A program made the translations under genes and the position numbers. Positions 20,533 through 34,543 of a stretch of 64,000 nt of DNA are shown here, piece by piece (within the stretch, counting starts at the first letter, position 1; each line of letters opens with the position of its first letter). The notes under the pieces are model-generated. The model did not search any database, was not told the DNA's origin, and saw only the letters and a list, made by a program, of their open reading frames with translations. The DNA comes from Hyphomicrobiaceae bacterium (GTDB lineage: Bacteria > Pseudomonadota > Alphaproteobacteria > Rhizobiales > Hyphomicrobiaceae): assembly GCA_025351355.1 (NCBI GenBank), contig JANXWC010000058.1, positions 1 through 64,000 on the forward strand, written 5' to 3'.

Positions 20533-21198
20533 TCAGTCAGCATCAACGAGTGCAGTCAAGTCGCGGACAATGCGGTCTGCGGGCATGTCCGGATATTCGT
20601 CGGGCGCACCCGATCGATTGATCCAGACGGTGCGGAAGCCAAACACTTCGGCGCCCGCGATGTCCCAGCGGTTCGACGACTGGAACGAAACGTCGTCGGC
20701 CGTGCCGCCGAAGCGGTCGAGCACCAGGCGATAGACGGCCATATCCGGTTTGAATACGCCGGCGTCGCGCACCGAGAGCACCGCATCGAATACTCCGCTC
20801 AAGCCGGCCGAGTTGACCGCATCGGCGAGCATATCGGGATCGCCATTGGAGAGAATGGCCACACGCGCGCCACGCGCTTTCAACGCCGCCAGCACAGACG
20901 GCACTTCAGGGAACGCCTGCATGGTTCGGTACGCCGCCAAAAGCTTTTCGCGCACACCGGCTGGCACGCCGCCGACGCTGGCGATTGCAAAATCCAGGCT
21001 GCGCTCCGTCAGCGACCAGAAATTTGCATCGCGCCCGGTAAGGGCATGGATCCAGGAGTACTCCAGATGCTTGCTGCGCCAAGTCTGCGACAGCTTCTCC
21101 CACTGAGCGCCGATCGTTGCCCGATGCGCGGCGGTGGCTGAATGCACGTCGAACAACGTACCGTAGGCGTCGAAAACGTAGAGACCCGGCAGCGGCAT
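20533..21198 (-). CDS. Haloacid dehalogenase, type II
   Basis: A 221-residue HAD enzyme. The nucleophile is Asp10 in FDAYGTLFD, ILSNGDPDML carries the motif II Ser-Asn, and FKPDMAVYRL (Lys) and SSNRWDIAGAEVFGFRTVWINR complete the pattern of L-2-haloacid dehalogenases, including the family's characteristic SSN and WDI sequence. ATG 21198 starts the conserved sequence; the frame is open further upstream without conservation. Hydrolytic removal of halide from short 2-haloalkanoates is the known activity. Confidence 0.93.
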   Translation of the reverse strand: MPLPGLYVFDAYGTLFDVHSATAAHRATIGAQWEKLSQTWRSKHLEYSWIHALTGRDANFWSLTERSLDFAIASVGGVPAGVREKLLAAYRTMQAFPEVPSVLAALKARGARVAILSNGDPDMLADAVNSAGLSGVFDAVLSVRDAGVFKPDMAVYRLVLDRFGGTADDVSFQSSNRWDIAGAEVFGFRTVWINRSGAPDEYPDMPADRIVRDLTALVDAD

Positions 21199-21378
21199 GG
21201 AGCGTCCCTTAATAGTGATGCGGCGATGGTACCACACTGTTACGGCCAGGTCACAGCCCAGAGCTTGAGGGTAGTGACTCAGTTTGAAAGCCATCGACGT
21301 TTCTCCCTCCCACTTGAGGGCTACCGCATGCACCCAAGCGGGTCGTTATCCGGTTCGCGACCTCTCTCCCGACGCTGT

Positions 21379-21419
21379 CCCGGAATTTGGGCGGCGCCCT
21401 TTGCGCTGGCCAAATATCC
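21379..21419 (+). repeat. Dispersed repeat, module 1, copy A
   Basis: This 41-base palindromic module begins CCCGGAATTTGG and ends TGGCCAAATATCC, with GCGCCCTTTGCGC in the middle. The reverse complement of 32695-32737 matches it over nearly the whole length with a few substitutions. It can fold as a hairpin through the CCAAAT/ATTTGG arms. Confidence 0.75.
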
Positions 21420-21470
21420 TTGCCAGCCGGATTAATGTGCAACTGGCCAATTATTCCTTCCTACTACCCG

Positions 21471-21538
21471 GTAAAGATCCCGGCTCTCCGCGCCCTCGAT
21501 GCGGAGCATTGCTCCGCGATGTGGGCGCTGCGGCCGGG
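21471..21538 (+). repeat. Dispersed repeat, module 2, copy A
   Basis: This module begins GTAAAGATCCCGGCTCTCCG and ends GCGCTGCGGCCGGG. It is nearly identical to the reverse complement of 32569-32638, and has an inner hairpin GCGGAGCA/TGCTCCGC. It is separated from module 1 by about 50 bases of unrelated sequence, a similar spacing to that in the other copy. Confidence 0.8.
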
Positions 21539-21704
21539 AAAACGGCGGTGGGGGATGGCGATCAAAGATGTGTGCATCCCGTAACCATTGAGGGGGAGGT
21601 CGGCAGCGGCACGATTTTTATGTCTTCAAAAAATTGTTGGCCATGCCGAATGGGGGTGGGCTTGGGCTCAGTGCACGCTGTTGGACACCCTCACCCCAAA
21701 CGCC

Positions 21705-21763
21705 AGCGGCTTAGACCGGCTTTGTGCGAGGGCTGTCCGTGCATTGACTGGTCTAAACCGGTG
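21705..21763. repeat. Long imperfect hairpin
   Basis: GCCAGCGGCTTAGACC on the left pairs with GGTCTAAACCGGTGGC on the right, 14 of 16 positions, around a 32-base loop (21718-21749). The core TTAGACC (21711-21717) and GGTCTAA (21750-21756) is perfect. It has no T run and is not placed as a terminator, so a palindromic mobile repeat is likely. Confidence 0.55.
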
Positions 21764-21928
21764 GCGCTCGGCCCGCCCCCCTCGAAAGGGGAAGGAAGGA
21801 GGAAAGAGTCGGTCGATCTGGTTTTCAAAATGAGACACGACCAGCTCGCGGTTTCAGCGGCTCGCTACTAGCGATCAAAGCGCCGCGGTGCCATATGTGC
21901 CGCCCACTCTTGCTTTCGAGATCCGCCC

Positions 21929-23077
21929 ATGACCGCCGTTCCGCCGTTGCCTGCCGAAATCCAAACGCCCGCTTACGTGCTCGATGCCGAGGCGCTGGCG
22001 CGCAATATGGCGGTCGCATCGCGTGTGCGGCGTGAGGCAGGCTGCAAAGTTTTGTTGGCGACCAAGGCGTTCGCTTTTCCGGCGGCTTTTCCCCTGATGC
22101 GGGACCATCTCGATGGCACAACCGCGAGCGGCGAATATGAGGCGCGACTCGGTCGCGAGGAGTTCGGCAAGGAGGTTCATGTTTATGCGCCGGCCTACGG
22201 TCCGGGTGAAGTCGAGCGACTGGCCACGCTGGCCGATCATATCTATTTCAATTCGCCCGACCAGGTCGCCCGCCAGCTCGCCGTCGCCCGCACGAATCCG
22301 GCGGTCAAAATAGGCGCGCGGATCAATCCCGGTTATTCCAATGCGACGCTCGGTGGTGCGCTTTACGATCCGTGCGCGCCCAATTCGCGCTTCGGCACGA
22401 CGGTCTCTGAAATTGATCAGTTGCCATGGGATCAAATCGATATTTTCCATGTGCACACATTGTGCGAAAGCCTGCACGACGGCTCGGTGGGACTGATCGA
22501 GCACGTGGCGAAGAATTTCGGCGATTATGTGCGACGCGTGAAGGCGGTGAATTTCGGCGGCGGCCATTTCATCAACAAGCCCGGCTACGATGTGGCGAAA
22601 TTGATCGCCGCCATCACCGCGTTCCGCGCGGCCTTCGGGGTGGAGGTCATCCTGGAACCGGGCGCCGGGCTGGTTGTCGATGCCGGCTATCTGGTGGCGT
22701 CCGTGATCGGCTTTCACACCAATGGCCGACGCATCGCCATCCTCGACGCATCGGCTTCGACGCACATGCCGGACGTGCTGGAAGTGCCTTACAAGCCGCC
22801 ACTGTTGGGAGCCGGCGAACCGGGCACATTTGCGAACGACTACATGCTTGGCGGCAAGACCTGCATGACGGGCGACATCATCGGCGAATACTCATTTCCG
22901 CTGCCGCTCAAGGTTGGAGATCGGCTGGTATTCGGCGACATGATGCAATACTCGTTTGTGAAGAATACCACGTTTAACGGTACGCCGCTGCCCGACATGG
23001 CCGTGCTCGACCGTGACGGCAGCTATCGCGTTGTCAAACGGTTCGGCTACGCGGAGTTCCGTAACCGCGTCGGATGA
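21929..23077 (+). CDS. nspC: Carboxynorspermidine decarboxylase-like PLP enzyme
   Basis: A 382-residue fold-type III (alanine racemase-like) decarboxylase. The Schiff-base lysine is Lys46 in VLLATKAFAF; downstream come HVHTLCE, NFGGGHFINKPGYD (phosphate binding), LEPGAG and GKTCMTGDIIGEY with the cysteine that reaches the partner active site. In polyamine synthesis NspC makes norspermidine or spermidine from the carboxy forms. The usual partner, carboxy(nor)spermidine dehydrogenase, is not in the window, so either it is unlinked or the enzyme has another diamine-related role. ATG 21929 is used; the gene is alone. Confidence 0.9.
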   Translation: MTAVPPLPAEIQTPAYVLDAEALARNMAVASRVRREAGCKVLLATKAFAFPAAFPLMRDHLDGTTASGEYEARLGREEFGKEVHVYAPAYGPGEVERLATLADHIYFNSPDQVARQLAVARTNPAVKIGARINPGYSNATLGGALYDPCAPNSRFGTTVSEIDQLPWDQIDIFHVHTLCESLHDGSVGLIEHVAKNFGDYVRRVKAVNFGGGHFINKPGYDVAKLIAAITAFRAAFGVEVILEPGAGLVVDAGYLVASVIGFHTNGRRIAILDASASTHMPDVLEVPYKPPLLGAGEPGTFANDYMLGGKTCMTGDIIGEYSFPLPLKVGDRLVFGDMMQYSFVKNTTFNGTPLPDMAVLDRDGSYRVVKRFGYAEFRNRVG

Positions 23078-30665: not shown

Positions 30666-30831
30666 CGAACAGCGTCTCCAGACGGTGAAATAATTAGGTC
30701 GGGGTTTAATGGTCGGCACCCATGGCGACCACCCGAAAACGGTGGTCTCACTGTGCGCCGTAGTCGCAGCTGTTGGCAGTCGCGCGAACCCTACGTAAGG
30801 TGCAGGCGACGAAGCGATGGGACCGTGTGGC

Positions 30832-32448
30832 ATGACAGACGAAATATTTGACTACGTGATCGTCGGCGCGGGATCGGCGGGATGTGTGCTGGCCAACCGC
30901 CTTAGCGCGGACCCCACCGTGTCAGTCGCGTTGCTGGAGGCCGGTGGTCGTGACACCAACCCATGGATCCACGTGCCTGCAGGTTACTATCGCAATATCG
31001 TCAACCCGGCGATCACCTGGCAGTTCGGCTCTGGCCCGGAGCCCGAATTGGGCGGTCGAATCGTCAATATGCCGCGCGGTCGGGTGCTAGGCGGTACCAG
31101 TGCCATCAACGGTTTGCTCTACGTGCGTGGTCAGGCCGAAGATTTCAACGTGTGGCGGCAGCTCGGCAATCCCGGCTGGTCGTTCGGCGACGTGCTGCCA
31201 TATTTCAAGCGCGCGGAAAACCAATCGCGCGGTGCCGATGACCTGCACGGCGCAGGCGGCCCGCTGTCGGTCGAGGATGTGCGCATGGAAAATCCGCTCT
31301 GCGAGGCCTTCATCAAGGCGGCAGTCGCGGCGGGTATTCCGTTCACGCGCGACTTCAACGGACCGAGCCAGGAGGGTGTCGGCTATTATCAGCTGACCAA
31401 CCGCAATGGTCGCCGTTGCTCGACGGCGGTGGGCTATCTCAATCCCGTCAAGTCGCGACCCAATCTGCGTATCATGACGCACGCTGTGGTCTCGACGCTG
31501 ACGTTCGAAGGGCGCCGCGTGACCGGCGTTCGCGGCACATTCGGCGGAGCAGCGGGGCAAGTCTCGGCGCGGCGCGAAGTACTGCTGGCTGCCGGCGCCG
31601 TCGGCAGCCCACAGATCCTGCAAGTGTCCGGCGTCGGTCCGGGCGCGGTGTTGAAGGCCGCAGGTGTCGAGGTGCGCCATGAACTTGCCGGTGTCGGCGC
31701 CAATCTGCAGGACCACTACCAGGCCCGCTTTATCTATCACTGCCGCGCCGATGGCAGTCTGAATGAAGTCTGGCACAGTTCATGGAAGCAACTGAAGGCC
31801 GGGATCGAATACGCGCTGACCCGGCGGGGCTTGTTGACGATCGGTGCCGGGGTCGTCGGCATTTTCGCCAAGTCGCGGCCGGAACTGGAAACGCCAGATG
31901 TGCAATTCCATTTCATGCCGTTGTCAGCAGAAGGCGCGGGACAGGGTTTGCATAAATTCCCAGGCGTCATTTCTTCGGTGACCCAGTTGCGCCCGGAAAG
32001 TCGCGGCACCCTACGTATCACTTCGCCCGATCCGCAGGCGAAACCGGCCATCGTATCGAACTATCTAGCGGCCGACATCGACCGCCGCGTGCTGCTCGAC
32101 GCCATGCGGCTGAACCGTCGCATCGTCGCCACCCAGCCATTCGCCGATATCGTCGTGCGCGAACACGCGCCGGGCTTCGATGTCACCGGCGACGACGAGC
32201 TGATGGCCTTTGCGCGCGCCAAGGGCACGACGATTTTTCATCCGTGCGGCACGGCGAAGATGGGCAACGACGCCAACGCGGTCGTCGACGCGCGGTTGCG
32301 TGTGCATGGACTTTCGGGTGTGCGGGTGGTCGACGCGTCGATCATGCCGACGATGACGTCAGGCAACACCAACGCGCCGACGATCATGATCGCGGAGAAG
32401 GCGGCCGATATGATCGCCGAAGATGCCAAGGCGCGGGTGTCGGCGTGA
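30832..32448 (+). CDS. GMC family FAD-dependent oxidoreductase (choline/alcohol dehydrogenase-like)
   Basis: A 538-residue flavoprotein. The FAD-binding motif [16 protein letters not shown] is at the N-terminus, the second GMC signature is [21 protein letters not shown], and the C-terminal block [10 protein letters not shown]...[18 protein letters not shown] contains the catalytic His and Asn positions. It should oxidise a primary alcohol with electrons going to a carrier. ATG 30832 is preferred over ATG 30817 because of conservation of [12 protein letters not shown]; both lack a good ribosome site. Aldehyde dehydrogenase encoded next (opposite strand) could use its product. Confidence 0.93.
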
Positions 32449-32568
32449 ATCGTTCTATCACCGAGCGAAGTATCGACCTGCGAATACACACCCCTCACCT
32501 GCCCCCGTCTTTTGGCGCGTGCGCGTCAGGCTGGCATCCCTCGTTCACCGCACCTCTCTCAAGCGCGT

Positions 32569-32638
32569 CCCCGGCCGCAGCGCCACACATCGTGGAGCGA
32601 TGCTCCGCATCGAGGCGCGGAGAGCCGGGGTCTTTACC
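32569..32638 (-). repeat. Dispersed repeat, module 2, copy B
   Basis: The minus strand of this stretch begins GGTAAAGACCCCGGCTCTCC and ends GCGCTGCGGCCGGGG, matching 21471-21538 with few changes and small indels. The inner hairpin TGCGGAGCA/TGCTCC is partly retained. Confidence 0.8.
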
Positions 32639-32694
32639 TGTCAAATAAAATGGAGACGTTCGCCCATTTCCAATAAAAATGGAGTGGTAAAGAT

Positions 32695-32737
32695 CCCGGA
32701 TATTTGGCCAACGCGAAGGGCGCTGTCCAAATCCGGG
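32695..32737 (-). repeat. Dispersed repeat, module 1, copy B
   Basis: A 43-base palindrome: CCCGGATATTTGG at the left pairs with CCAAATCCGGG at the right. The reverse complement matches 21379-21419. It lies 56 bases from module 2, giving the same order and relative orientation as copy A when the whole element is inverted. Confidence 0.78.
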
Positions 32738-32900
32738 AAAGCGGCGCGGAGACGGTTGTGATTTTCAGACGTAAAGCAAAATCCCGACTCGCTTGTGTGT
32801 ATGCAATGAGGATGTCCGAAGGAAAGGTGAGGGGTTATTACCAGCGGTCGGAAATTTTGCTCAAAGGTATCAGGTGATTTGAATATCAATCCCGGGGTAA

Positions 32901-34352
32901 TCAGATCAGTTTCCGCATGATTTTTTCCAGTTTGGCGAAGCGGGCACCGTAGGGCGGCCGCAGCTTGTTGCCGCCGGCCCACTTCGACTGGAAGAAGATC
33001 GGCTTTTCCTTGCTGAAGGTGCGGAAGCCGTATTCGCCATGATAACTGCCGGTGCCGCTCGCCCCGACACCGCCGAAGGGGCTATCCAGCTGCGAAATAT
33101 GCATCACGCAGTCGTTGATGGTGACGCCGCCGGAGATTGTTTCCGTCAGCACGCGATCCTGGCTGCGCTTGTTATCGCCGAACCAGTAGAGCGCCAGCGG
33201 GCGCTCATGCGCGTTGATGTAGTCGAGTGCTTCATCGAGTTGGCGGTACGTCTTGACCGGCAGGATGGGTCCAAAGATTTCTTCCTGCATAAGCCGCATG
33301 GTGTCGTCGACGCCGAACACCAACGATGGCACCATGGCGCGCCGGTTGCCCGTTTGCGTGTCTGTATCCGCGCCAAGTTTTACGATCCGCGCGCCACGGG
33401 CCTCCGCATCTTTCAAGAGTTCGGTCAGCCGCGCAAAATGACGGTCGGTGACGATGCTGGTGTAATCCGGATTGGGCATGAATGACGGATACATCTTCCC
33501 AGTCGCGGCGCGCACTTCACCTTCGAACGCCGCCACGTGGCTCTCGTGCAAGAGGACATAATCGGGGGCAACGCAGGTCTGTCCGGCATTGAAAAGCTTG
33601 GATCGCATCAGGCGGGGCACGCCGAGTTTCAGGTTGGCGGTCTCATCGATGATCGCAGGCGACTTGCCGCCCAGTTCGAGCGTCACGGGCGTGAGATTTT
33701 TCGCCGCCGCCTGCGCCACCAAGCGGCCTACCTGGGTCGAGCCCGTATAGAGCAAATGGTCGAACGGCAGCTCCGAGAATGCGCGCCCAGCGTCGGGGCC
33801 ACCGGTGACAACGGCGAACTCTTCGGGCGAAAATTTCTGCGCCACAATCTCGGCCAGGAGCTGGGAGAAGCGCGGGGTGATTTCAGATGGTTTCACCATA
33901 ACGCGATTGCCCGCCGCGAGCGCGCCGATCGCCGGTGTCATGGCCAGGAAGTAAGGATAATTCCATGGGCTGACGATGCCGACCACGCCGAGGGGCTGGC
34001 GCAGCAAACGGTTGTAGCTCGGGCGGAAAACCAGGTGCGTAGGAAGGCTGCGCGGCGCCATCCAGGCCTTGAGGTGCCGGCGCGTGTGTTTGACGTCTGC
34101 AATCACGCCGAAGAGATCGCCGAGGATAGTCTCGTGCGCCGAGCGGCCGCCGAAGTCCGCACTGATCGCGTCGATCAATGCCGTGCGATGTTGCTCGGTT
34201 ATGTCCAGGATGCGCGTGATACGGTCCAGCCGCTCTTCCAGTGACGGCAGCATGTCGTGCGCAAACGCCGCGCGCTGGCGGTCCAGCAAGGTGCGCAGGC
34301 CGTCAGCGGGCGAAACATCAGCAACTGCCGTCAATGCAAGACTGTCAGCCAT
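32901..34352 (-). CDS. calB: Coniferyl aldehyde dehydrogenase
   Basis: A 483-residue member of the ALDH class 3-like branch. The catalytic cysteine is Cys260 in FNAGQTCVAPDYV, the general base Glu226 in LELGGKSP, and the oxyanion Asn131 in SPWNYPYF. Closest remembered group is coniferyl aldehyde dehydrogenase, which makes ferulate from coniferaldehyde; medium-chain aldehydes are an alternative. ATG 34352 begins the conserved sequence. No phenylpropanoid genes adjoin, but the GMC alcohol oxidase-like enzyme is the next gene and could supply aldehyde. Confidence 0.88.
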   Translation of the reverse strand: MADSLALTAVADVSPADGLRTLLDRQRAAFAHDMLPSLEERLDRITRILDITEQHRTALIDAISADFGGRSAHETILGDLFGVIADVKHTRRHLKAWMAPRSLPTHLVFRPSYNRLLRQPLGVVGIVSPWNYPYFLAMTPAIGALAAGNRVMVKPSEITPRFSQLLAEIVAQKFSPEEFAVVTGGPDAGRAFSELPFDHLLYTGSTQVGRLVAQAAAKNLTPVTLELGGKSPAIIDETANLKLGVPRLMRSKLFNAGQTCVAPDYVLLHESHVAAFEGEVRAATGKMYPSFMPNPDYTSIVTDRHFARLTELLKDAEARGARIVKLGADTDTQTGNRRAMVPSLVFGVDDTMRLMQEEIFGPILPVKTYRQLDEALDYINAHERPLALYWFGDNKRSQDRVLTETISGGVTINDCVMHISQLDSPFGGVGASGTGSYHGEYGFRTFSKEKPIFFQSKWAGGNKLRPPYGARFAKLEKIMRKLI

Positions 34353-34543
34353 AGCTATCGTCCTCAGTTCGATCGTGACAAGGGTTCGGCTGCACCCATA
34401 CAATGATGCACGACCACTTTCCAACAGAGACATGCGCGATGATCAGCGTTGTGCAGCAGATAGGGTATATACGGGCACGAAACGGTAGGGCACGCTGCGT
34501 CGGCGCGCTTACGGCGTAAGTCTCCGGTCGCAAGGGAAATGCC

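Follow-up and report, generated by a model that had tools for sequence, protein, structure and literature searches.

The bacterial repeats closest to the element analysed here are the CGTC REPs and the GTAG REPs associated with RAYT. CGTC REPs, which include dRS3 of Neisseria and RPE-4 and RPE-6 of Rickettsia, are short palindromes, found mostly as inverted dimers and most commonly in Alphaproteobacteria; the paper that defined them (Di Nocera et al. 2013, PMC3733652) states that they show no association with transposase genes and 'apparently lack a dedicated transposase'. No enzyme is reported for CGTC REPs in that paper, and the term 'giy-yig' does not occur in its text. In the GTAG REP/RAYT system (REPtron, REPIN) the repeats are inverted hairpins flanking the gene of a DNA-processing enzyme, a tyrosine transposase, and the tag of the repeat varies with the enzyme clade.

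We compared with these systems an inverted pair of palindromic repeats (copies A and B) found in a 64,000-nucleotide stretch of the genome of a Hyphomicrobiaceae bacterium (contig JANXWC010000058.1, positions 1 to 64,000; hereafter the window). The family to which the two copies belong is palindromic, multi-copy and consists mostly of inverted dimers, a build that is like that of the CGTC REPs. The window copies differ from CGTC REPs in lacking a terminal CGTC (or TGTC/CCTC), the ends of their tags being GACGCTGTCCCGG, GCGTCCCCGG and CCGCTTTCCCGG, and in lacking a CCA-type tail, the tail being ATCTTTACC, or TTGCC in copy A. With the GTAG REP/RAYT system the family shares inverted hairpins, repeats that flank the gene of a DNA-processing enzyme, and a tag that varies with the enzyme clade, but here the enzyme is a GIY-YIG protein and not a tyrosine transposase, and the window copies have no GTAG/GTGG 5' of the hairpin. 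Judged from these sequence features, the window family looks like neither a CGTC REP (tag, tail) nor a RAYT REP, yet it appears to be built like both. We think it probable that the window copies, as REP-like double hairpins, are non-autonomous members of a family in which the active role falls to a single-domain GIY-YIG nuclease of approximately 95-107 amino acids.

The initial annotation had described two hairpin modules in copy A, about 50 bp apart, and an inverted counterpart elsewhere in the window; both modules are present, and the counterpart was found as copy B. As delimited by sequence, genome matches and alignment, the complete two-module elements, with their tags outside and tails inside, are slightly longer than first noted: copy A occupies approximately 21371-21546 on the forward strand, copy B 32564-32746 on the reverse strand. 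The order of the parts is tag, hairpin 1 (CCCGG AATTTGG...CCAAATAT CCGGGATC), tail TTTACC, a variable spacer of about 45 bp, tail GGTAAAGATC, hairpin 2 (CCCGGCTCTCCGCGCC...GGCGCTGCGGCCGGG) and again a tag. In copy A (all parts on the forward strand) sequence and alignment place the hairpin of module 1 (CCCGGAATTTGG..CCAAATATCC) at 21379-21419 and the variable spacer at 21425-21469, whereas the hairpin of module 2 with its tail GGTAAAGATC was placed at 21470-21538 by repeat search and alignment. The tail of module 1 is 7 bp short in this copy, which appears as a 7-column gap relative to the other 12 aligned composites. In copy B (all parts on the reverse strand) module 2 lies at 32564-32638 and module 1 at 32686-32738 (repeat search, alignment), with the variable spacer at 32639-32685 (sequence, alignment). 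The repeat search of the 64-kb window returned three inverted pairs: 21380-21419/32698-32737 (85%), 21494-21523/32586-32615 (93%) and 21470-21494/32614-32638 (96%). A subset of the copies has in addition outer arms, which were identified by eye; in copy A the left arm (GGCTACCGCATGCACCCAAGC) is at 21318-21339 and the right arm, approximately its reverse complement, at 21560-21586 (both forward strand), and the outer arm of copy B is at 32786-32812 (reverse strand). An Rfam scan of the window at the gathering threshold detected only a tRNA.

Searching the organism's own genome (5.25 Mb, 98% complete) with copy A yielded 43 BLAST matches (E<=1e-3; best non-self match 2.6e-67), which is more than chance would give, and 13 two-module composites could be aligned. 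Far from being the sole copies, the two in the window are thus accompanied by 11 further composites of the same genome, and the proposal that they belong to a dispersed REP-like family is borne out by the matches and by the alignment, in which the modules are, as had also been remarked, more alike than the spacers. Single modules are dispersed too, apart from the composites. A second subfamily (L007-L011, L013, L014) combines the same module 2 with another module 1 (like CCGTCTTGCCGGGCAAGCG..CGCGACCCGGGACCTTGCCC). Five copies (L005, L007, L009, L010, L011) are close to contig ends, at a distance of about 260-420 bp, therefore the repeats there may have broken the assembly and the copy number may be underestimated. 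In five of the 13 composites the loop of module 2 contains a nested, optional mini-hairpin of 26-30 bp (like TCGATGCGGAGCATCGCTCCGCGATG), located at 21494-21521 on the forward strand in copy A and at about 32586-32613 in copy B, as if hairpin loops were landing sites of this small element. The mini-hairpin was also seen inside a different repeat (GTAGGTTGGGTC.. type) at L023:1501-1532, and there are look-alikes in the related genome G020 (L033, L040).

Pairing in hairpin 1 is maintained by compensatory changes; one pair, for example, is G-C in seven, A-T in five and G-T in one of the 13 composites. When the two hairpins were evaluated as separate structures, 94.3% of the cells of the alignment were paired, a value better than that of the shuffles, with 10 double-change cells vs 4.5 in shuffled alignments (reached by 0/500) and five double-change pairs vs 2.7 (reached by 3/500); the number of further pair types was no better than in the shuffles (310/500). 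We also considered a four-way junction formed by the complete element. Its additional helices are paired in 85.3% (tag-tag) and 90.9% (tail-tail) of the cells, but the structure was matched by 206/500 shuffles for pairs changed on both sides, by 27/500 for cells and by 34/500 for the score, and its double changes were confined to hairpin 1 and one end pair, so that nothing clear was gained. Because of these comparisons with shuffled alignments we prefer two separate hairpins.

Copy A lies between the genes of a divergent pair, encoding a HAD-like hydrolase (20533-21198, reverse strand; a neighbour also in the genomes G004 and G002) and a PLP-dependent decarboxylase (21929-23077, forward strand). 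Copy B lies between the convergent genes of a GMC oxidoreductase (30817-32448, forward strand) and an aldehyde dehydrogenase (32901-34433, reverse strand). In two species of the same genus the genes flanking copy A are adjacent and the element is missing, the intergenic distance being 149 bp (G004) and 138 bp (G002) vs 730 bp in the window; in G001 the neighbourhood of this site is different, and in G003 the decarboxylase is without a match. These orthologous sites support, for copy A, the mobility postulated in the initial annotation, and gain of the element here is a simpler reading than two losses elsewhere, a preference that does not amount to proof. The empty sites are too diverged to place element ends or a target-site duplication, and we do not claim exact ends for copy A because the extra length of about 585 bp exceeds one element. 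The enlarged intergenic region contains a further imperfect inverted repeat (CTTAGACCGGC..CTGGTCTAAACC) at 21710-21770.

The initial annotation is partly supported: its REP-like repeat family is borne out and so, for copy A, is mobility, but the link it suggested to a RAYT transposase failed because there was no PF01797 match in the own genome; the same search was positive for 5/14 control genomes. What was found linked to the repeats is, instead, a single-domain GIY-YIG nuclease. In the own genome a module-1 hairpin is located directly 5', and on this side only, of a truncated GIY-YIG gene (C105:12488-12670), whose similarity ends at residue 64 of 107. An intact gene with module-1-type hairpins on both sides is present in the related genome G012, where its neighbours are infC on one side and rpmI on the other (as named from their translations). 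The spacing between these two genes is 895 bp in G012, 148-335 bp in eight loci and 657, 1360 and 1381 bp in others (both genes could be placed in 10 of 30 loci, and in 12 on a wider pass). The own genome has three other genes of the same nuclease family (C18, C46 and C220), one with CGTC REPs on both sides, one with a CGTC REP on one side and one with none; the repeat beside one own-genome nuclease gene (L072) has only two copies. Since the cognate gene at C105:12488-12670 is truncated, the window family is probably either inactive at present or served by one of the genes on C18, C46 and C220.

Of 30 nucleases fetched from genomes of the family, 18 were aligned, and all 18 matched PF01541 (E<=0.001) as a bare GIY-YIG domain. 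Residues Y12, Y23, R33, E70 and N89 are invariant in the alignment, and we take them to have catalytic roles. The AlphaFold model of the nuclease has a mean pLDDT of 91; by Foldseek (no match at E<=0.001) the nearest fold is that of UPF0213 protein BH0048, followed by Slx1-Slx4. The extra domain and the partner of Slx1 have no counterpart in these nucleases of about 100 amino acids. UPF0213 proteins are likewise single-domain GIY-YIG proteins with a similar fold, and two of them (PDB 1zg2 and 1ywl) gave profile matches to the nuclease with E values of 9.2e-7 and 4.4e-4. The structural match to Slx1-Slx4 (6seh; branched-DNA processing according to the structure title) was weak (prob 0.98, E 0.042), and the GIY-YIG fold is what the two have in common.

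Relatives of the nuclease were sought in one genome per species (84,980 species), which gave at least 549 relatives; the best 80 were kept, two of which (L085 and L115) are loci already known as L061 and L064. Represented among them are Alpha-, Beta-, Gamma- and Deltaproteobacteria, Planctomycetota, Nitrospira, Omnitrophota, candidate-phyla bacteria and a Kordia. The genome G069, of the window's family, has the same nuclease as the Filomicrobium record of L115, which points to Hyphomicrobiaceae, the family in which NCBI puts Filomicrobium. Among the 30 family loci, the first 10 were inspected by eye; in all of them the gene is flanked on either side by palindromic hairpins, in several by two-module composites, and over the 30 loci fixed motifs found a hairpin on some side in 25/30 and on both sides in 12/30. 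When 300-bp flanks were aligned locally, 64 of 78 loci scored above the 99th percentile obtained from 624 random positions (two loci at contig ends were dropped). At a score of 40, repeated flanks were found at 48/74 nuclease loci (six were left out for short or masked flanks) vs 10/777 other ORFs of the same contigs; at 26/74 nuclease loci there was no repeated flank at this score. Many of the repeats beside GIY-YIG genes fit the published definition of CGTC REPs. Using a rule taken from the published anatomy (GTC, an 8-nt stem starting A-T/C/G with one mismatch allowed, and the tail CC), we found a CGTC REP on both sides of 30/74 nuclease genes vs 4/784 neighbouring ORFs, and on at least one side of 48/74 vs 44/784, compared with 1/80 shuffled upstream flanks.

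The same rule was applied to a second sample. A search of a plasmid collection with L072, a nuclease of the own genome, gave 32 records, of which 12, each from a different genus, were used. Eight of the 12, including that of N. gonorrhoeae, have a CGTC REP, and five have it on both sides. The Rhizobium tumorigenes record has no CGTC REP by the rule and nothing beside the nuclease gene; the Planktothrix, Novosphingobium and Spirosoma records miss the rule, and their palindromes are GTCAT- or GTCGC-like. Among 249 genomes of Pseudomonadota the CGTC pattern was present in 44/69 with the nuclease vs 29/180 without it (Fisher p 1e-12, kinship ignored). The single pattern had no match in 25 of the 69 nuclease genomes, and nine genomes have at least 10 CGTC copies, two of them 78 and 155, without a nuclease match. 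Among the papers listed from the open-licence PMC literature we found none linking GIY-YIG proteins with REPs and no later report of an enzyme for CGTC REPs, a description elsewhere being possible; one paper mentions both GIY-YIG and extragenic palindromes, in unrelated places, and none mentions both GIY-YIG and dRS3.

The repeat tag differs in one clade of the nuclease. This clade (L055-L061 and L085) has an SH-aLRT value of 93, on an open, unstarred branch of a tree built from few columns. None of its eight rows has a CGTC repeat, vs 73 of the 103 other loci, whereas an alternative tag, GC(G/A)T(T/C)CC, occurs on both sides in seven of the eight rows (6/7 distinct loci, since L061 is L085) and in 0/103 others. 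A one-sided match to the alternative tag was found at seven of the 103 other loci, four of which carry the ALT label in the tree; the truncated L054 and L067, both with a one-sided alternative match and no CGTC, were left out of the tree and of the counts. The exception in the clade is L055 of G012, where the single motif match is spurious, the tag is GGTTTCCC and the visible hairpins carry GGTTTCCCGG; the hairpin core of G012 is the one nearest to the window's. The alternative-tag repeats, whose tails are mostly such as ATCTTGCC or ATCTTTAC, resemble the window's kind. It must be noted that this result is exploratory because both the tag pattern and the clade label were set after the first loci had been seen.

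Over whole genomes, the alternative-tag pattern has at least one match in 8/9 genomes assigned to the clade (seven from their position in the tree, G030 and G000 from their truncated proteins) vs 11/94 others. Five genomes have a single match, the same level as in a reversed control, which gave single matches in six of 103 genomes, therefore at least two copies is the safer count. By this count the pattern is present in 6/9 clade genomes vs 8/94 others (p 1.4e-4), and in 4/7 vs 10/96 when tree-placed genomes alone are considered (p 0.006). Two genomes of the same genus, G001 and G002, have 6 and 17 alternative-tag copies and no nuclease match at 1e-8. Outside the window, a hybrid repeat (L205, G000:C134:83669-83717) carries a CGTC tag and a CC tail on a window-type AATTTGG hairpin, and this copy therefore ties the CGTC and window repeat classes together.

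The association of the repeats with the gene makes the GIY-YIG nuclease a strong candidate for the enzyme that would spread them. The nuclease may recognise the tag and hairpin of its own repeat type and nick or cut at the tag-hairpin, either where the DNA is extruded as a cruciform or where it is single-stranded at the replication fork; repair or re-joining after the cut would leave new repeat copies elsewhere. That hairpin and tag are conserved as a unit would be understandable if the enzyme recognises DNA in branched or hairpin form. The nuclease gene itself may travel as a REP-gene-REP unit, as the REPtron carries RAYT. In G029 the gene is located between direct repeats that are 97% identical over 185 bp, other repeat matches in this genome reaching 70% identity over 224 bp or, in short stretches, 83-92%, and direct repeat copies also occur beside the nuclease gene at L058 and L059. 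The direct copies at these three places suggest that a unit of REP and gene was joined where a REP was already present.

The same G029 arrangement, with repeats beside the gene more alike than the others, would also be produced if the nuclease were a homing-type parasite, which cuts REPs and has its own gene copied into them while the REPs spread by other means or serve the host. GIY-YIG enzymes do include homing endonucleases (PMC1564403), TIGR01453 gave weak matches in 2/18 nucleases, and tag specificity is equally expected of such a parasite. This explanation, however, leaves the spread of the repeats themselves unaccounted for in a genome that has no RAYT match, and we consider it unlikely.

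Conserved hairpins located mostly between genes could also be host-selected structures (terminators, mRNA 3' ends, protein-binding sites) accumulated by gene conversion, with the link to the nuclease being secondary. Of 21 copies examined, 16 are free of overlap with called ORFs, the other five being spanned by called ORFs of 113-412 amino acids. The neighbouring genes of the 21 copies are codirectional in 11 cases, convergent in six and divergent in two, and two copies are at contig edges; this mixture rules out a terminator role alone. As the strong association with the nuclease gene (48/74 vs 10/777 for repeated flanks, 30/74 vs 4/784 for CGTC REPs on both sides) is not predicted by host selection either, we regard this explanation as very improbable. 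A classical MITE moved by an IS transposase through outer inverted arms, such as GGCTACCGCATGCACACAAG and its reverse complement in a subset of copies, is scarcely credible, since many copies have no visible arms and single modules disperse too.

Returning to the nuclease as mobilising enzyme, we see roughly an even chance that the wider generalisation is correct, namely that REP mobilisation evolved a second time, independently, in the form of single-domain GIY-YIG nucleases, each specific for one class of tag plus hairpin, and that in many bacterial phyla these spread both CGTC-type REPs (dRS3 and its relatives) and new classes of tag, the window's among them. If so, a prokaryotic repeat would be mobilised by a GIY-YIG enzyme, and the REP life-style, tiny hairpins served by a one-domain nuclease, would have arisen twice with unrelated enzymes. 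The widespread CGTC REPs, for which the defining paper gives no enzyme, now have a candidate that is open to cloning, deletion and assay. The generalisation would also explain short 'GIY-YIG nuclease family protein' genes inside conserved operons, as between sufB and sufC in Azospirillum lipoferum.

GIY-YIG genes were seen within apparently conserved housekeeping operons at L055 (infC|rpmI), at L111 and L209 (sufB|sufC), at L153 (between mdh-like and sucD-like genes) and at L049 (after rplT); the neighbours were named from translations save at L209, the A. lipoferum locus, which is annotated so. Insertion between sufB and sufC is seen in Pararhizobium as well as in Azospirillum. On a Planktothrix plasmid (L215) the annotated neighbours of the GIY-YIG gene are an MmeI-type restriction enzyme on one side and the DISARM gene drmA on the other.
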